Shown: one piece after another, positions 220-7,998 of the stretch
How positions within the stretch are numbered: position 1 is the stretch's first letter
Layout of the letters: each line of letters starts with the position of its first letter
Virus record (IMG/VR): IMGVR_UViG_3300020202_000211
Coordinates: 1 to 24,326 of that record
Direction: 5' to 3' (one strand)
DNA: 24,326 nt
Source: a virus
Notes under the pieces: generated by a model
Told to the model about the DNA's origin: nothing
Database searches by the model: none
What the model saw: only the letters and a program-made list of their open reading frames with translations
Made by a program: the position numbers and the translations under genes

Positions 220-549
220 ATGTCGGTTCGTGAATTCTCGCAAATGAAGCTCCGCGATCTCCAGAAGGTGCAGGACGATCTCACCGAAGCCATCAAGCTC
301 CGCAAGGCCGCCGAAGCCAGCGAAGTCCGCAAGGAACTGGTCGATATCGTCAAGCGCAAGGGCTTTACCTCGCTCGACGAAATCTTCGGCAAGAAGCTCT
401 CCCCCAAGGGCGGCTACAAGCAGCAGATGGCCCCCAAGTACCGTGATCCCAATGACCCCAAAAAGACCTGGAGCGGGCATGGGCGCAAGTCGAACTGGTT
501 GATCGACCGGCTCAACAAGGGCGCCAAGCTTGACGACTTTCGGGTCTAA
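220..549 (+). CDS. H-NS-family nucleoid-associated DNA-binding protein
   Basis: A 109-aa protein with the classic H-NS layout. An N-terminal charged helical segment (residues about 5-45, heptad-like, rich in K, E and L) should form the coiled-coil oligomerisation region. A linker follows, then a C-terminal DNA-binding domain at 72-94 containing KYRDPNDPKKTWSGHGRK. The family binds the minor groove of AT-rich DNA and silences or bridges it through a Q/R-G-R hook. Here the first hook residue is His (HGR), an uncommon variant. The start at 220 is preferred over an in-frame upstream start at 166 because a strong Shine-Dalgarno (aggaaggaag, 209-218) lies just before it and the conserved helical region starts there. 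Being phage-borne, it may silence host or phage genes, or interfere with host H-NS by mixed oligomers; that role is inferred. Family assignment is confident. Confidence 0.88.
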   Translation: MSVREFSQMKLRDLQKVQDDLTEAIKLRKAAEASEVRKELVDIVKRKGFTSLDEIFGKKLSPKGGYKQQMAPKYRDPNDPKKTWSGHGRKSNWLIDRLNKGAKLDDFRV

Positions 550-558
550 GGCTACAAT
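530..558 (+). promoter_or_regulatory. Sigma70-like promoter facing the non-coding region
   Basis: TTGACG (530-535) and TACAAT (553-558) each match the sigma70 consensus at 5 of 6 positions and are separated by exactly 17 nt. The -35 lies in the last codons of the H-NS gene and the -10 just after its stop. Predicted transcription would start near 565 and enter the gene-free structured region. No experimental support; a match of this quality can occur by chance, but position and spacing are suggestive. Confidence 0.45.
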
Positions 559-671
559 CCTTCCGCTGATGATTGTTTGATAGGGCCCAATGGGTCTCAA
601 TCGAATAACCGAGCGGGAGGTTCCCATGTATCCCCTGGGGTAAAGCCCAGAAACTCGAAGCCTTGCAATCT

Positions 672-700
672 GAGGGCGCTCCGCTGGATGGGGCGCCCTT
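672..700 (+). terminator. Strong 11-pair hairpin downstream of the H-NS gene
   Basis: Bases 672-682 pair with 690-700 around a 7-nt loop (gctggat). The core AGGGCGC/GCGCCCT is perfect and the ends add wobble pairs. The following bases (tgtcgttt) are only moderately T-rich, so it may terminate or attenuate transcription from the H-NS gene, or be one helix of the structured RNA. Confidence 0.45.
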
Positions 701-765
701 TGTCGTTTCGGCCATCCCGAATCAGGGGTAGACTGGCGGTCTGTAGCCGGGCGTTGCGGTCTTTC

Positions 766-882
766 GCTGTTGCCGCCGTCTCCACGGGGGGTTGCGTGGC
801 TCCTACTAACACGAGAGGTCCGATGGGTGGCGGCAACAGTCCCGTTTCATGGGATAAGTCATGTTCGACCTCAAATCGGACC
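766..882 (+). other. Long helix with pseudoknot partner inside the non-coding region
   Basis: Bases 767-777 (ctgttgccgcc) are perfectly complementary to 829-839. Wobble and Watson-Crick pairs extend this to 766-781/825-840, 16 consecutive pairs. The enclosed sequence holds a 5-bp hairpin (782-786/795-799) and then GGTCCGAT at 817-824. This is perfectly complementary to ATCGGACC at 875-882, outside the helix. The two pairings cross, so they form either a pseudoknot with coaxial stacking at 824/825 or two alternative conformations. A small hairpin (841-843/851-853) lies between. Confidence 0.5.
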
Positions 883-892
883 ACCACGTAGG

Positions 893-976
893 GTGCAGGT
901 GAGTGGGTTGGCCGTCACCGGACAGGGCGGTTTTCCAATTCCTCCCACTTCGTAAGCCGTTCCGGCGGGCCTGCAT
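893..976 (+). other. Closed multi-helix domain
   Basis: A closing helix (893-900/969-976, six Watson-Crick pairs plus two wobbles) encloses two hairpins. One is a long bulged arm, 902-907/944-949 continuing as 908-911/935-938 and ending in 914-916/921-923. The other is a small GCCG/CGGC hairpin at 956-966. A competing pairing, 955-960/1000-1005, is also perfect. This nested arrangement is typical of a folded RNA junction rather than of random hairpins. Confidence 0.4.
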
Positions 977-1024
977 TCTTTACTCGGCAATCGGGGTTGA
1001 CGGCTCGGGACACGGTCCCTTCGC

Positions 1025-1213
1025 CTATCTCGCCTTCGGCTCGATAGCGCTACGCGCTGGGTCTTCAAGGGCAGAGCGGAGAGCGCGCATGATTTCGTGC
1101 CGTCTTTGAGCCGAAAGCATCAATCCATTGGCCCTCAGATAGCGCAGATTTGCTGCCATCATCGAGCGCTGGGCCGCAGAAAGATTCGGCAATAGCTTGC
1201 GGGTGCAGCGCAT
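1025..1213 (-). CDS. Small hypothetical protein within a palindrome-flanked segment
   Basis: A 62-aa ORF with a good Shine-Dalgarno (gagggg, about 5 nt before the ATG complementary to 1211-1213). The product is basic and mostly helical. It shows a weak internal repeat in which an LSAAQR-containing segment recurs about 22 residues later as LSAQRR, each followed by a Met/Ala/Leu/Arg helix. Third-position G/C is only about 60%, lower than the phage genes around it. A weak possible promoter (GCGCAA at 1324-1329 and ATCATA at 1301-1306, read on the - strand as TTGCGC and TATGAT, 17 nt apart) lies upstream. Its last codons coincide with hairpins. No family recognised. It may be a real gene of an inserted mini-element or a chance frame through structured DNA. 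Confidence 0.3.
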   Translation of the reverse strand: MRCTRKLLPNLSAAQRSMMAANLRYLRANGLMLSAQRRHEIMRALRSALEDPARSAIEPKAR

Positions 1214-1293
1214 TGTTCCCCTCGCTCAGGCCGTCAGGCCTATCGGAGCGCTTTTAGCGCGGAGATAGCCGAGGGCTCAATAGCCCGAAGGCG
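1031..1293. repeat. 9-bp inverted repeat with hairpins flanking the small - strand ORF
   Basis: CGCCTTCGG at 1031-1039 recurs in inverted orientation as CCGAAGGCG at 1285-1293. Each copy sits next to a GCGCT-type hairpin: 1046-1050/1054-1058 on the left, 1248-1252/1256-1260 on the right. The flanks thus form an imperfect terminal inverted repeat around the 62-aa ORF. This resembles a REP- or MITE-like palindromic unit, although no target duplication was found. In RNA terms the same pairing would close a ~260-nt domain. Confidence 0.35.
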
Positions 1294-1438
1294 TCACCCC
1301 ATCATAGCGATTGACGAATCACAGCGCAAAAGGCAATACCTTTTCCCAACAGGTGTTCCCAGTTCAGTATCGAGGCGTACCCATCACGCGAGGTGATCGG
1401 GAATTTACTCTCCCACCGTCAGGCGACGGTTGAGTTCA

Positions 1439-1524
1439 AGAGGGGAGCGAGCGCTGGCAGGCCCTTACAGTTGTCCATGGGGCGCGTCCGTCAGCAGGTC
1501 AATTCATTGGCTTCGCTCCCCTCT
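1439..1524 (+). other. 13-pair long-range stem with nested helices
   Basis: Bases 1440-1450 (gaggggagcga) are perfectly complementary to 1513-1523, and one further pair on each side makes 1439-1451/1512-1524. Nested inside are 1453-1458/1490-1495 and 1461-1464/1480-1483, giving a rod-like domain. It lies about 100 nt upstream of the first virion gene. Confidence 0.45.
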
Positions 1525-1541
1525 GCGTCTTTGCGCTGCTC

Positions 1542-1566
1542 AGATTTCCGACAAAAGCGGAAATCT
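1542..1566 (+). other. Perfect 9-bp hairpin upstream of the first virion gene
   Basis: AGATTTCCG (1542-1550) pairs perfectly with 1558-1566 around a 7-nt loop (acaaaag). There is no T-run after it, so it is not a standard terminator. It could be the 3' helix of the structured RNA, a processing site, or a leader element of the capsid operon. Confidence 0.45.
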
Positions 1567-1617
1567 CGCGCCTAAGGCCTTTGTGGGCAAGCCAGACAAC
1601 TCGGGCGCCCAAAGGCC

Positions 1618-2214
1618 ATGGCAAACACCAACGCACCCTTCGGACTTCGGCAGGTTGGCCTCAATGGCTCGCCTGTCGCCAACTTCGGCATGAGCACCCG
1701 TTTCGGCGGGATCGACAAGGACGACACGACGCCGATCTTCTGCGGCGATCTCGTCAAGCGCCTTGCCACCGGCTATCTCGCCCAGTGGACCAACGGCACC
1801 GCGGTCTCCCAGGCGGCCGGGGTGTTCTTTGGCTGCGAATACTATTCGATTTCCCAGCAGGCGCGCATCTTCAACCGCTTCTGGCCGGGCACGGACGCCG
1901 CAGGCGATGTGGACGCCTTCCTCATCCCCTTCCAGCAGACCCCCAATCCGACGTTCGTCATCCAGTCGGGTGCGGCGGGCATCGCCTTCGCCGATGTCGG
2001 CATGAACGTCGATATCGTGGTTGGCACCGGCAACACCACCTCGGGCTTCTCCGGCTCCTACCTCTCGACGGTGGCGGCCACGGCGACGCTGCCGCTGACC
2101 ATCGTCGATCTGTGGACGACCGCGAACGGGGGTGGTGTGGGTCCGGGCGTCGAGGCTGGCGCCTACAACTGGGTGCTCGTCGCGGCCAACTCCAACCAGA
2201 TCACGGGCATCTAA
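1618..2214 (+). CDS. Capsid-proximal virion structural protein (possible cement/decoration protein)
   Basis: A 198-aa protein beginning MANTNAPFGLRQVGLNGSP, an opening I know from phage structural proteins encoded next to the major capsid gene. The rest is beta-rich and Gly/Ala/Thr-rich, without signal peptide or membrane segment. Position immediately before the major capsid gene (27 nt gap) suggests a head protein such as a cement, decoration or minor capsid component; this role is inferred from context. The ATG at 1618 is fixed by the conserved N-terminus, although its Shine-Dalgarno is weak and very close (aaagg, 2-nt spacer). Poor initiation could be compensated or controlled by the structured upstream region. 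Confidence 0.75.
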   Translation: MANTNAPFGLRQVGLNGSPVANFGMSTRFGGIDKDDTTPIFCGDLVKRLATGYLAQWTNGTAVSQAAGVFFGCEYYSISQQARIFNRFWPGTDAAGDVDAFLIPFQQTPNPTFVIQSGAAGIAFADVGMNVDIVVGTGNTTSGFSGSYLSTVAATATLPLTIVDLWTTANGGGVGPGVEAGAYNWVLVAANSNQITGI

Positions 2215-2241
2215 TAACCGGCGGACAAGGAACCCTAAACC

Positions 2242-3159
2242 ATGGCTATCAATCTCGCACAAGAGCGCGACCTGCTCCGCCCCGGTCTCTATGAGGTCGC
2301 GGGTGAATACAAGAACATCCCGACCCAGTACAAGAAGTTCTTCAAGGTGCGTCAGTCCACCATGGCCATCGAGCGCAAGGCGCAGATGGCCTACATGGGC
2401 TACGCGCAACTGAAGCAGGAAGGCGGCAACACCCAGTTCGACAACAACGCCGGTCAGCGCTGGATTTATTCGGCGGAGACCTTCGAAGTCGGTCTGGGCT
2501 ATGCCATCACCCGCAAGGCCATCCGCGACAACCTCTATAAGACGGAGTTCAAGCCCACGGCTCTGGGCTTGGCCAAGGCCTTCAAGGAGTTCTGGGAGTA
2601 TCAGGCCTTCAATATCTTCAACAACGGCCAGACCTACAACATCAATGTCGGTGGTGACGGTCAGCCGCTGTTCTCTACCGCCCACCCGGTCGATCAGTCC
2701 ACGTGGTCGAACACCTTTACGACCATGCTCGACCTCAACGACAGTTCGCTCATCCAGGCGTGCAAGAACATCCGCACCAACTGGGTGGACGAGCGCAATC
2801 TGAAGATCATGGGCCGCCCGAAGAACGACGGTCTGATGGTGCCTGTGAACCTCATCGACGTGGCCGAGCGCATTTGCGTTACCGAGCTTCGGCCCGGCAC
2901 CGCCGACAACGACATCAATGCGCTGCGCTCGATGGAGGGCGGCGTGCGCGGCTACTCGGTGGTGGATTACCTCACCTCCAACTTCGCGTGGTTCGTGCGC
3001 ACCGAGAACGACGGCCTCAACTTCTGGGTCCGCGACGAGTACGAGACCGATATGTGGGTGGACGATATGTCGGACAACCTGCTCGTTAAGGGTTACGAGC
3101 GCGCCACTCCGGCCTACGACGACCCGCGCGCCGTGTTCGGCTCGTTCCCGACCGCCTAA
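2242..3159 (+). CDS. Major capsid protein (HK97-fold type)
   Basis: A 305-aa protein, a normal size for a major head subunit without a large scaffold domain. Features I associate with HK97-fold/Mu gpT-like capsid proteins include an acidic/helical N-arm and a long helix with Lys/Arg (residues 30-60). There is also the hallmark segment DGQPLFSTAHP at about 141-151 and a C-terminal P-domain-like beta region with many aromatic residues. It should assemble the icosahedral shell. The Shine-Dalgarno (aagga) lies about 10 nt before the ATG. The gene follows the putative cement gene and is followed by a strong hairpin that could raise or isolate expression of this most abundant protein. The assignment rests on motif and context and is confident; the exact subfamily is not. 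Confidence 0.85.
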   Translation: MAINLAQERDLLRPGLYEVAGEYKNIPTQYKKFFKVRQSTMAIERKAQMAYMGYAQLKQEGGNTQFDNNAGQRWIYSAETFEVGLGYAITRKAIRDNLYKTEFKPTALGLAKAFKEFWEYQAFNIFNNGQTYNINVGGDGQPLFSTAHPVDQSTWSNTFTTMLDLNDSSLIQACKNIRTNWVDERNLKIMGRPKNDGLMVPVNLIDVAERICVTELRPGTADNDINALRSMEGGVRGYSVVDYLTSNFAWFVRTENDGLNFWVRDEYETDMWVDDMSDNLLVKGYERATPAYDDPRAVFGSFPTA

Positions 3160-3166
3160 CGACAGC

Positions 3167-3195
3167 AGCGGGCAGTTTCAAAAGAACTGCCCGCT
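3167..3195 (+). terminator. Strong hairpin after the major capsid gene
   Basis: An 11-bp perfect GC-rich stem (AGCGGGCAGTT, 3167-3177, with 3185-3195) and a 7-nt loop (tcaaaag), beginning 7 nt after the capsid stop codon. Only cccttcc follows, without a U-tract, so it may be a partial terminator or an mRNA-stabilising 3' structure that sets the capsid mRNA level relative to downstream genes. Confidence 0.65.
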
Positions 3196-3232
3196 CCCTT
3201 CCTGACGCACAGCAGAGGAGCGCGTTCGCGCC

Positions 3233-3679
3233 ATGGCCGTAGGCACGACCTTCAGTGGCCCCCTGATCTCGGGTCCGAAATTCAATGAAGACGCGAATGG
3301 CCCGGCCAACACCGGCCTTGCGCTTCTGACGCAAACTGCGGTGATCACGCAGAACTCCACGACCCCGGTGAGCGCGACCTTCGCGATCCCCAAAAACACC
3401 CGCATCGTCACCTTCATCGTGGACACCTCGGTGGCCTGGGACTCGGCCACGTCGGCGGTGCTCACCATCGGCACGGCGGCGGCGGGCACGCAGTACGTCA
3501 CCTCGGTCGATGTCAAGACGGCGGGCCGCGGCACGATCACCTTCACGGCGGCCCAGATACTCGCCATGGTCGATACGAACACCAACACTACGGTTGTCGC
3601 CACGGTGACGCCGACCGGCGCCACGACGGCTGGCACGACCTACGTGACCATGCAGTACGTCCAGACGCTCGACTCGTAA
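3233..3679 (+). CDS. Small beta-rich virion protein
   Basis: A 148-aa protein, Thr/Val/Ala-rich with alternating hydrophobic residues typical of beta-sandwich virion proteins. There is one helical stretch near residues 100-112 (TFTAAQILAMVDT), no cysteines, no signal peptide and no membrane helix. It lies downstream of the major capsid gene after the 3167-3195 hairpin and before two small basic genes, suggesting a capsid decoration or minor structural role. A GAGGAG ribosome site lies about 12 nt upstream of the ATG, slightly far. The fold is inferred from composition only, and no specific family is recognised. Confidence 0.7.
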   Translation: MAVGTTFSGPLISGPKFNEDANGPANTGLALLTQTAVITQNSTTPVSATFAIPKNTRIVTFIVDTSVAWDSATSAVLTIGTAAAGTQYVTSVDVKTAGRGTITFTAAQILAMVDTNTNTTVVATVTPTGATTAGTTYVTMQYVQTLDS

Positions 3680-3689
3680 GGGGGACGGA

Positions 3690-3860
3690 ATGGGGCATAA
3701 GTATCCCGCGCCGGTCAAGGGCAAGATGCGTGATGTCGGGGTGAAAGCCCCGCATCAGAACGCCGGGGGCGAGAAGATCATCAAGTGCGCCGAGGGCAAG
3801 ACCACGGGCACGATGCGCGGAGATGAAGACGCGATTGCTATGCACGCGCGTCTGAAGTGA
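3690..3860 (+). CDS. Small basic phage protein
   Basis: A 56-aa ORF (M-G-H-K-Y-P-A-P-V-K at the start, ending A-R-L-K) that fits exactly between its neighbours: 10 nt after the previous stop and 6 nt before the next start. It has a G-rich ribosome site (aagggggacgga) directly upstream and high third-position G/C. The product is Lys/Gly-rich, with a single Cys at about residue 37, and probably unstructured in part. Function is unknown. Its place in the head operon suggests a virion accessory or assembly factor. Confidence 0.65.
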   Translation: MGHKYPAPVKGKMRDVGVKAPHQNAGGEKIIKCAEGKTTGTMRGDEDAIAMHARLK

Positions 3861-3866
3861 GGGACC

Positions 3867-4058
3867 ATGGCCAAAGCATCGGACAAGCACTGGATTGCCG
3901 GGGCGATTGAGCATCCCGGCGCCTTACGCAAAAGCCTCGGGGTGAAGGAGGGGGAGAAGATACCCGCCAAGAAGCTCGACAAGGCGGCCCATTCCGACAA
4001 CCCGACAACCCGCAAACGGGCGCAACTCGCCAAGACCCTCAAGGGCTTCCACCACTAA
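3867..4058 (+). CDS. Conserved small basic phage protein (KHWIAGAI type)
   Basis: A 63-aa Lys-rich protein. The pattern KHWIAGAIEHPGALRKSLGV, followed by GEKIPAKKL, a short AAHS segment and a basic C-terminus (R-A-Q-L-A-K-T-L-K), recurs in many phage and prophage structural operons. Biochemical function is not established to my knowledge. The composition suggests nucleic-acid or capsid-interior contact. It starts 6 nt after the previous gene's stop, so translation is probably coupled. Confidence is high that it is a real gene, low for role. Confidence 0.75.
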   Translation: MAKASDKHWIAGAIEHPGALRKSLGVKEGEKIPAKKLDKAAHSDNPTTRKRAQLAKTLKGFHH

Positions 4059-4104
4059 AGGGGTCTGGTGCGGCGTTCTTTTTTAATCTGAAACGAGGAC
4101 GGAT

Positions 4105-5106
4105 ATGGCCCAGCCTTTGGTAGTGACCGTGGGACCGCTGGCTGCCGCCGATGCCGATGGGGCGGCCCAGTCGCAGGTGGCGGCCGGAGCGCAGCATCTG
4201 GTCCTCAACGGGGACTTGGCGGCGAACACCTTCGATGCCGATGGCGTCTGTCTGTCCCAGGCGGCGGCCCTGGGTGACCTCACCCTCAACGGGGCGCGGG
4301 TCAGTTCCGTGTCGGGTGCCCCGGTCGCCTATCTGCCCTCCTTGAGCCGGGTCTACATCACCTCGACCGGGGATGACAGCGGCGTCACCTTTACGGTCTA
4401 TGGGACGCTCTTTTCCCCGTCTGGCCCGGTCTCCGTCGTGGAGGTGGTCACCGGCTCCAACTCTTCCGTCGCCTCCACCACCAAGCAATACCAGACGGTG
4501 ACGCGCATCGCCGCGTCCGGGGCTTCCGCGGGGACGGTGACGGTCGGCTATTACGACGGCCTCGCCACCATGGACATGCAGCGGCGCATCATCATCACCT
4601 CCTCGGGGGATGATACGGGCATCACCTTTACCCTGACGGGCACCGACGGAACCGGGGCGGTGATCACCGAGGTTCTGACCGGGGCCAATGCCGGAGCGGC
4701 GACTTCGGCGCTCTCCTACAAGACCCTCACCTCGGTGCTGACCTCGGGGGCGGCGGCAGGCACGGTGACGGTCGGCACCAACGGGATGGCGGATAGCTTC
4801 TGGGTGCGCTTCGACGACTTTGCGGGCAACTCCCAGGTGGCCATCCAATGCACGCCCGATGGCGCCACGGGCACCGTGCAGCAGACGCTGGAAGACCCCA
4901 ACCGGGTCACCAACACGGTGGCGCCCAACACCTTCCAGTGGACCCCGGCGGAGATCACGTGGCTCGATCATCCCGATGCCAATCTTGTCGGGTTCTCCAC
5001 CCCCGTGCAGGGCAACTACGGCTATGCGCCGCTGTTTGCCCGGGTCACCCTCACCAGCGGCTCGGGGTCGATCACGACCACCTTCCGCCAAGCCTACATG
5101 GGGTGA
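4105..5106 (+). CDS. Virion protein with two internal repeats
   Basis: A 333-aa, Thr/Ser/Gly/Ala-rich protein. Two tandem modules are evident at residues 82-152 and 161-228. Each opens with an R-V/I-x-I-T-S-x-G-D-D-(S/T)-G-(V/I)-T-F-T pattern, continues through E-V-(V/L)-T-G-(S/A)-N and ends with A-G-T-V-T-V-G. Each is probably an Ig-like or beta-sandwich domain. The C-terminus (230-333) is different and aromatic, ending in R-Q-A-Y-M-G. Such repeats are common in capsid decoration proteins and tail-sheath or fibre base proteins; location in the head region favours a decoration or head-fibre role. A GAGGA site lies 6 nt before the start codon. No exact family recognised. Confidence 0.75.
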   Translation: MAQPLVVTVGPLAAADADGAAQSQVAAGAQHLVLNGDLAANTFDADGVCLSQAAALGDLTLNGARVSSVSGAPVAYLPSLSRVYITSTGDDSGVTFTVYGTLFSPSGPVSVVEVVTGSNSSVASTTKQYQTVTRIAASGASAGTVTVGYYDGLATMDMQRRIIITSSGDDTGITFTLTGTDGTGAVITEVLTGANAGAATSALSYKTLTSVLTSGAAAGTVTVGTNGMADSFWVRFDDFAGNSQVAIQCTPDGATGTVQQTLEDPNRVTNTVAPNTFQWTPAEITWLDHPDANLVGFSTPVQGNYGYAPLFARVTLTSGSGSITTTFRQAYMG

Positions 5107-5109
5107 TTC

Positions 5110-5304
5110 ATGCCCGGCCTGATCGATGAAGAGGCGACAACCGGGCTCGCCTATACGACGGGGACGGGGCTGCAATGGACCTCGCAAATCGGCGGCGGCG
5201 GTCTTGACAACAACCCGGGGGAAGCGGGCCACGGGTTCATTTTGATGGAGAATAGCGGCTACATCCTGATGGAGGATGGCAACTCGTTTATTCTCTTGGA
5301 ATAA
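5110..5304 (+). CDS. Small phage protein with C-terminal ILME repeats
   Basis: A 64-aa protein beginning 3 nt after the previous stop codon. The N-terminal half is acidic and Gly-rich. The last 23 residues are three near-repeats of about 9 residues (GFILMENS, GYILMEDGN, SFILLE). Short (F/Y)-I-L-x-E-(D/N)-G repeats occur in phage proteins encoded near fibre genes. They look like a beta-solenoid or trimerising strand repeat, but I know of no assigned function. Real-gene status is supported by tight spacing and the regular repeat. Confidence 0.65.
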   Translation: MPGLIDEEATTGLAYTTGTGLQWTSQIGGGGLDNNPGEAGHGFILMENSGYILMEDGNSFILLE

Positions 5305-5319
5305 GGGGCGCGCGGGACC

Positions 5320-7998
5320 ATGAGCGACACGAAGATTACCGGCATGCCAGCCGCCGCGGCCCTCACCGGCACCGAGGTGGTGGCGGGCGTCCAGGGCGGT
5401 GGCAACGTCAAGATCGACCTCAATGCGGTCAAGGCCTTCGCCGTCACCTTGAACGGCAACCCGGGCGATCCGGCCGGGCCCCTCGATGGCTCCGGTAAAA
5501 TCCCCACGTCCCAGTTGCCCCCGCTCGACCACGACGTGGGCGAGGCGGCGAACGAAGCCGAAATGCTGGCGCTGCCCGTCACTGCGCCTGCGATCTGCAT
5601 TCGCACCGACTTCACCCCGGCGCATGTGTTCTATCTCACCGCCGACCCGGCGACGGACGTTAACAACTGGGTGGATACGGGCGAGTTCGGGGCGGGCGCC
5701 GCCAATCCGACGGCCAGCGTTGGGCTGGCGGCGATCAATGGCGTCGCCAATACCTATATGCGCTCCGATGCGGCTCCGGCTCTTAGCCAAGCCATTGTGC
5801 CGACGTGGACCGGGATTCACACCTTCAATGGCTCCACAAGCGGCTCCACTCCAAGCATCGTCCTTGGGGGAACCCAGCCGGAACTTCGTATGTTCGACCC
5901 GAGTGCGGCTGTGGGTCAGAAGTATTGGCGGGTAAGGGGGTCGGGTGGCGGCTTTTTCCTACAAACGGCGGATGATACTGGAATAAATAGCGGCTCCTAC
6001 GGCATCGTATTTCTGCGCAGCGGGACAATGATCTCGCAGGTGCAGATCATGGCGCTCAACAATCCGCTTACTCTGACCGGCACTGACGCAACTCTATGGT
6101 CTGGCTATACGCCAGCCAACCCGCTGTCCATCGCCACCAAGGCCTATGTCGATGGCGCCACGTCCGTTACTCCGGCCAACCCTTCCGCCCAGGTCGGCAC
6201 GGCGGCGATCAATGGCGTCGCCACGACCTACATGCGTTCGGACGCCGCCCCAGCCATCAATGAGGCGATGACCCCCACGTGGACGGGTCTGCACACGCAC
6301 AACACCGCCGTCCACATCAACAACCCGGGCGGCGATGCGTTCATTGTCATGAACTCGACCGTCACGGGTCCGACGGCGACCATCAGCACCGCCTCCTCGG
6401 GCGGCAGCGCCCTCTCGACCCTGCTGCTGAAATCCACCTCGGTTTCAGGGGGCGCGTCGCTTGGGTTCACCAACACCTCGCTCGGCACCGACCTCAAGAC
6501 CTGGGACATCTATCAGAGCGACACGACGTTCAACTTCCGCACCAGCAACGACGCCAATAGCTCGAATGCGACTTGGCTGACGGCGACGCGCGCGGCGGCG
6601 GCGATTGCGGGTATTGCCTCCAACAGTGGTACAGGAGCCTGGACCCACACGGGCACGCTTGCCGTGACCGGCAACGTCAACGTCCAGGGCAACATTAGCT
6701 CGACGGCCAACCTCAATCCAGCGGGACCGACCAACTCGGGCGCGCAGCTTGTTGCCGCTCCGAGCCTCGCGACGATTGGGTTCTGGGACTCAACGCGCAC
6801 GGTCAACAACCGCTATGCGGAATGGATTTGGTTTGAAGGCGCCCTTCAGGCGCGATTCAAGAACGACGCGGGTAGCTCGGCCGTCGTGCCGCTCTCGTTT
6901 ACGGGTGGGCAAGCGGGCGGCATCACCGCCATCGCTTCGAACAGTGGCTCGGGCGCCTGGACGCACACGGGCACGTTTCACGCGACGGGCGCGGTATCGT
7001 TCACCGCCTCCTCGACGATCACCGCTCCGACCCTTCAGGTGGCCAGCGGCGGCCCGCAAATCGAACTGCGCTGCACCTCGGCCGCGGTAAATGGGCAGCG
7101 GTGGAATTACGTCGCGGACGCGACCTCGCTCAAGCTGAGCATCCTCAATGACGCAGGCACCGTCGGCAGCGGGGTGTGGCAGGTTAACCGCAGCGGCACC
7201 ACGGTCACCGAACATTTCTTCTCGGCGGGCGGCAGCACAAGGCTGACAATTACCGACACCGACCTCGCGGCGGCGGTGGGCTATGCCCCGGCGAACGCCC
7301 TGTCGCTGGCGACCAAGGACTACGTGGACACGCACCCTGGCGTCGGCAACGGGGTGCCCCTCACCACCGACGCCAGCCGCATCTACGGCACCACGGGGAG
7401 CGGGGATCAGACCACCTTCCCGATCAGTGGCGCCAGCGGCATCGCGGGGCTCACGGCCAGCGGCGTGCTCCCCGTCGCACTCATCAATCAGTCGGCCAGC
7501 GCTACCTATAGTTGGGAAGCCAGCCACTTGTTCCTCAACCCGCCCGCGGCGGCCTATGACTCGGCCAGCGAAAGCTTTAACGACCAGATTCTGGTGGACC
7601 GGGATTACGTCAAGACCTATGTGGCGGCCAATGGCGGCAGTGGGGGAAGCAGCGGCACCTATGCGCCGACGCTCGCCGCCGGGGGCGACACCATCACCAA
7701 CAAGGGGTTCTGGTACACCCGGGTCGGTGATGTGGTGCAGGTCAGCGGCTCGGTAGACCTGACGCCCGGCTCTGCGGGCAATGTGCCATTCACGATCACC
7801 CTGCCGATTGCCAGCGAGCTTGCAGAGCAGTTCGACCTCGTGGGGTCGGTGGTCAGCTATAGCGGCGTCTCCGGTGATCCCGACGCCTATGGCACGGTGT
7901 TTGCCGATGCAGCCAACAATCGCGCCAACGCCAACCTGCAAGTGCCCAACACCGATCAGCGGTTTGTGACCGTTCAATTCAGTTACGTGGTGGTCTAA
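5320..7998 (+). CDS. Large tail-fibre-like protein with repeated modules
   Basis: An 892-aa repetitive, Thr/Ser/Ala/Gly-rich protein. The N-terminus (KITGMPAAAALTGTEVVAGV) resembles the virion-anchoring start of many phage fibre proteins. Internal repeats include A-I-N-G-V-A-x-T-Y-M-R-S-D-A-A-P-A followed by P-T-W-T-G-(I/L)-H-T (two copies, about 135-170 and 295-330). The phrase GAWTHTGT also occurs twice, and A-T-K-x-Y-V-D fibre motifs appear near 273 and 664. The C-terminus ends in beta strands (FVTVQFSYVVV). It should form a trimeric host-recognition fibre. The stop overlaps the next gene's start (TAATG), implying translational coupling. No chaperone, DGR or protease domain is seen. Confidence 0.8.
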   Translation: MSDTKITGMPAAAALTGTEVVAGVQGGGNVKIDLNAVKAFAVTLNGNPGDPAGPLDGSGKIPTSQLPPLDHDVGEAANEAEMLALPVTAPAICIRTDFTPAHVFYLTADPATDVNNWVDTGEFGAGAANPTASVGLAAINGVANTYMRSDAAPALSQAIVPTWTGIHTFNGSTSGSTPSIVLGGTQPELRMFDPSAAVGQKYWRVRGSGGGFFLQTADDTGINSGSYGIVFLRSGTMISQVQIMALNNPLTLTGTDATLWSGYTPANPLSIATKAYVDGATSVTPANPSAQVGTAAINGVATTYMRSDAAPAINEAMTPTWTGLHTHNTAVHINNPGGDAFIVMNSTVTGPTATISTASSGGSALSTLLLKSTSVSGGASLGFTNTSLGTDLKTWDIYQSDTTFNFRTSNDANSSNATWLTATRAAAAIAGIASNSGTGAWTHTGTLAVTGNVNVQGNISSTANLNPAGPTNSGAQLVAAPSLATIGFWDSTRTVNNRYAEWIWFEGALQARFKNDAGSSAVVPLSFTGGQAGGITAIASNSGSGAWTHTGTFHATGAVSFTASSTITAPTLQVASGGPQIELRCTSAAVNGQRWNYVADATSLKLSILNDAGTVGSGVWQVNRSGTTVTEHFFSAGGSTRLTITDTDLAAAVGYAPANALSLATKDYVDTHPGVGNGVPLTTDASRIYGTTGSGDQTTFPISGASGIAGLTASGVLPVALINQSASATYSWEASHLFLNPPAAAYDSASESFNDQILVDRDYVKTYVAANGGSGGSSGTYAPTLAAGGDTITNKGFWYTRVGDVVQVSGSVDLTPGSAGNVPFTITLPIASELAEQFDLVGSVVSYSGVSGDPDAYGTVFADAANNRANANLQVPNTDQRFVTVQFSYVVV

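Follow-up and report, generated by a model that had tools for sequence, protein, structure and literature searches.

The viral contig analysed here (24.3 kb, referred to throughout as the window) carries 1068 nt without a recognisable gene (positions 550-1617) between an H-NS gene and a 198-aa gene, and the question raised by this locus is what such a gap does directly ahead of phage head genes. A sequence-only reading had proposed, as possibilities, a new ornate RNA of the GOLLD or ROOL kind or a long capsid-operon leader. GOLLD and ROOL form homo-oligomeric RNA complexes. Both are large, occur in phages and prophages, often close to tRNA islands, and have elaborate conserved folds (PMC12286853). 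Our analysis indicates that the region is probably not one ornate RNA. We consider it fairly probable that it is a composite in which the functional folded RNA is a capsid-operon leader, at about 1301-1617.

The genes and the promoter match that frame the region are as follows.

220-549, plus strand: H-NS family gene (PF00816, E 4e-14), inserted upstream of the head genes
530-558, plus strand: sigma70-like promoter match (TTGACG-17-TACAAT), consensus match only
1618-2214, plus strand: first head gene, P0003, 198 aa (phrog_37556)
2242-3159, plus strand: major capsid gene, Mu gpT-like (PF10124)

In related phages, the head operon runs in the order coiled-coil protein, ~190-aa protein, non-coding leader, P0003, and capsid. 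The H-NS gene occupies the same gap in the related phage L082, which has further small genes inserted there too; other relatives lack it at this position. The phage-borne H-NS gene adjoins the head operon; its plasmid homologs are at most 38% identical, and its relatives occur in few phage records. The promoter-like site proposed at 530-558 is present, with 10 of 12 consensus positions matched; two such sites were found in the 3.3 kb scanned, compared to 1.0 expected. The region is also gene-poor, as had been described. Its open reading frames (ORFs) of 60-104 aa have no match in Pfam or PHROGs, and a coding explanation was rejected for lack of a family match in these databases. Searching the region against Rfam at gathering and permissive thresholds gave no match, in agreement with the earlier view that no known RNA family is involved; permissive hits in the window were at chance level, and intron families gave no hit in the region. 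No tRNA was found in the 24-kb window by ARAGORN.

The earlier reading treated the region as one structured unit. This did not hold: z-scores of 120-nt segments equal those of coding DNA from the same contig (p = 0.33). Folding of the whole region is only somewhat better than that of shuffles on either strand (z -2.6 for plus, z -2.1 for minus). By fold z against shuffles, excess structure is confined to 559-703 and 1345-1617, with none in 704-984. The claim of long helices was borne out for two perfect ones, of 11 bp (767-777/829-839) and 12 bp (1439-1450/1513-1524); two helices of at least 11 bp were seen in none of 60 shuffles and none of 41 other 1068-nt windows of the contig. The crossing 8-bp pairing GGTCCGAT/ATCGGACC (817-824/875-882) exists, but about three helices of at least 8 bp are expected by chance.

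Comparison with a close relative divides the region further. L082, a 110-kb phage contig, is 97-98% identical to the window over 125-984 and 1301-6990, and has unrelated DNA in place of the 316 nt at 985-1300. No other close relative was found: when viral contigs were scanned for exact matches to four conserved stretches, only this contig was hit, and the same was true of a scan with the H-NS protein. A genome scan gave a single chance 18-mer hit, and nucleotide searches of phages and plasmids gave no homolog of 550-1617. The parts upstream of the leader are listed below.

559-703, plus strand: 3' end of the H-NS gene or a ~140-nt RNA; hairpin 559-620, then a 12-bp terminator-like hairpin at 672-700
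704-984, plus strand: conserved non-coding block with the 11-bp helix and the crossing match
985-1300, no strand assigned: exchangeable cassette; dispersed-repeat copies at 987-1061 and, inverted, at 1262-1308 around a minus-strand ORF
1025-1213, minus strand: cassette ORF, 62 aa, of no known family

The block at 559-703 folds with z -3.04. The terminator scan found four sites compared to 3.3 expected, the hairpin at 672-700 among them, and the sole change in this hairpin in L082 (G to A at 692) converts a U-G pair to U-A. We interpret this block as the H-NS gene's own 3' end and terminator, or else as a small terminated RNA. The following block, 704-984, is nearly identical in L082 except for a patch at 916-942, and its fold is no better than that of shuffles (z -0.27; z -0.1 for the L082 counterpart). 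Non-coding differences between the two phages number three in about 655 positions, counted by hand from the alignment after removal of the insert and two short variable patches, while the downstream genes differ by about 2.9%. Some gene stretches are equally conserved, so the low non-coding divergence may partly reflect recombination.

Within the cassette, the 62-aa ORF has no relatives in the viral contigs. The L082 insert also has a minus-strand ORF, and its predicted small protein looks hydrophobic as judged by eye. The L082 contig has the window's repeat at three more sites, and at one of these it again flanks a small ORF as inverted copies. Repeat pairs inverted around small minus-strand ORFs look like a mobile small-gene cassette. 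Palindromic dispersed repeat sites were recorded at 987-1061 and 1262-1308 in the window, and also at L168:944-991, L168:1185-1259, and L169:1057-1118.

The last third of the region has several features of a cis-acting operon leader.

1301-1617, plus strand: leader region of the capsid operon, by fold z and by position in common with the relatives' leaders
1351-1573, plus strand: predicted closed multi-branch domain; closing helix 1351-1356/1568-1573, inner 12-bp helix 1439-1450/1513-1524
1542-1566, plus strand: hairpin with a 9-bp stem, its pairing kept through three compensatory double changes
1576-1617, plus strand: predicted hairpin (consensus fold) whose 3' arm abuts the start codon at 1618

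The stretch 1345-1617 folds with z -3.01, and its L082 counterpart with z -4.87. The minus strand folds equally well (z -3.38), and stability therefore does not settle the strand. The multi-branch domain is the consensus fold of the window and L082. In the hairpin at 1542-1566, three of nine pairs differ between these two sequences and all three are still paired (A-U to U-A, U-A to C-G, and C-G to A-U), while the loop varies freely; this is the best evidence for constraint. Most other helices of the leader show no variation because only two sequences of it are known. A non-coding fold lies directly upstream of the head genes, as in a structured capsid-operon leader. At about 1311 there is no strong promoter (8 of 12 matches). 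The suggestion of a long capsid-operon leader is supported only for the 3' third (about 1301-1617), on fold, compensatory change and slot. In the mechanism that we propose, the leader would be transcribed and would form a closed domain of several branches, and the hairpin after it would extend into the P0003 start codon. By restricting access to the start site, perhaps together with a protein, the leader may tune how the head genes are translated. The H-NS 3' end with its terminator (559-703), the conserved block, and the exchangeable small-gene cassette would lie upstream of the leader.

Leaders occupy this slot in related phages as well. Most relatives have a ~92-nt leader with twin hairpins between the ~190-aa gene and P0003, ending at the ATG. 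Its first two hairpins share a CCCGGYG-type loop, and a further hairpin after them carries the ribosome-binding site. When 83 sources were searched with a covariance model (R1) built from 19 leaders, it found 59 matches, located immediately ahead of P0003; it also matched the named phage record MW202675 (E 1e-13). Four examples are given below.

L099:5912-6003: twin-hairpin leader, R1 match
L104:1139-1234: twin-hairpin leader, R1 match
L127:5912-6003: twin-hairpin leader, R1 match
L173:2819-2909: twin-hairpin leader, R1 match

The two stems show strong covariation: 95.9% of alignment cells are paired, and 38 cells are double-changed compared to 11.4 expected; no shuffle of 500 reached this covariation, and the signal collapses on sliding. 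The two loops are alike within a phage (CACGATGC twice in L127, CACGCTGY twice in L104). A candidate anti-start pairing, GAUGG/CCGUC, is nearly invariant in these leaders, so covariation is uninformative on it. A second leader type occupies the slot at L084:5861-6000 and L002:5217-5364, with five compensated pairs between the two phages. Mean fold z of 15 leaders was -1.9 compared to -0.8 for coding controls (p = 0.055), and high stability alone is therefore no general mark of these leaders. None of 15 loci tested had an Rfam gathering match, and a permissive Rfam search of one twin-hairpin leader gave a sub-threshold best hit, upstream of the motif. No capsid leader of this kind is described in the open-licence literature searched.

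The leader of the window is not itself a twin-hairpin RNA: model R1 scored at best 1.2 bits against window positions 450-1700 with filters off, and L082 is not among its 59 matches. Both leader kinds occupy the same slot upstream of the same capsid operon, whereas that of the window and L082 is about three times longer and has another fold. It is probably a divergent, longer occupant of the slot that tunes capsid translation.

Several other explanations of the region have to be weighed against a composite with a capsid-operon leader. A single GOLLD/ROOL-type RNA of about 1 kb appears very unlikely; in it the conserved 5' and 3' blocks would fold together as one core, with the swapped segment as a variable insert at the periphery. 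Such an RNA is consistent with the size, the lack of recognisable genes, the two long helices beyond chance, and the high conservation of both flanking blocks, and GOLLD too has a less conserved half, with tRNAs possible in the linker (PMC12286853). Like GOLLD and ROOL, the region is phage-encoded, hundreds of nucleotides long, non-coding, and predicted to fold heavily; it differs in having no Rfam match or tRNA nearby, an exchangeable cassette inside, and structure in separate blocks. In the two homologs, all three covarying pairs fall in one 3' hairpin and the middle 316 nt are non-homologous. These 316 nt are swapped in a relative of ~97% identity, and the inserts, unrelated to each other, have a minus-strand ORF in both phages; a slot for exchangeable antisense genes is difficult to reconcile with one folded RNA. 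The terminator-like hairpin at 672-700 and the chance-level folding of 704-984 also argue against a single RNA, and the original GOLLD/ROOL comparison is disfavoured.

The inverted repeats could instead act as DNA, as binding or packaging sites or as cruciforms for H-NS or a recombinase, with no functional RNA. The minus-strand fold of 1345-1617 and the neighbouring H-NS gene would agree with this, and a compensated inverted repeat would preserve a DNA cruciform too, but in the relatives the hairpins are small, their loops are conserved and their distance from the AUG is constant, which suits a leader RNA better; we regard a role as DNA as unlikely. An ordinary intergenic patchwork is rather unlikely; the region would then hold a terminator, scars of recombination, and hairpins formed by chance, but no RNA dedicated to regulation. 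Local z-scores that overall do not differ from those of coding DNA favor such a patchwork, as do the swapped cassette and dispersed repeats, which indicate active recombination at the locus. It is opposed by the compensatory changes at 1542-1566, the fold z of the leader in both phages, and the covariation in the leaders that relatives carry there. Counted against the composite reading are the small number of sequences of this leader (two), the unexplained conservation of 704-984, the minus-strand fold, the weak promoter match at about 1311, and possible recombination.

In RNA phages, coat-protein translational operators are hairpins overlapping the start site of a structural or replication gene. 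The leader of the window would resemble these in its predicted hairpin at a start site. It shares with cis-acting operon leaders of bacteria and phages a non-coding fold directly before a start codon and compensatory change; it differs in matching no Rfam family, and any effect on expression is putative. The most fitting label for the region is a structured cis leader with its neighbours rather than an ornate RNA. These results weaken the argument for a new giant RNA; in its place they offer a conserved site for RNA elements ahead of the capsid genes in a large clade of phages. Should the twin-hairpin leader prove to control how much capsid is made, it would be an RNA switch acting on head genes of tailed phages, and to our knowledge no RNA switch of such form has been established for these genes. 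More tentatively, an RNA element that controls the capsid operon may be maintained ahead of it throughout a large clade of environmental phages whose capsids are gpT-like. Most of them would use the twin-hairpin RNA, and the match between its two loops within each phage would suggest that one partner binds both. The ~270-nt leader of the window would then be an enlarged, divergent occupant of the slot, and the elements together a new family of switches for capsid expression in tailed phages.

A hairpin followed by GAGUAACGGU is common to L083, L085, L086, and L093, about 160-220 nt before the P0003 ATG, and the window has a hairpin with UUGAGUUC at a similar distance. Homology of this 'hairpin + GAGU' block among the four phages and the window is suggestive and too weak to claim. 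Just upstream of one twin-hairpin leader, L099:5804-5876 has a sub-threshold match to the sRNA family suhB/mmgR (33.5 bits, cut-off 41, E 1.5e-5).
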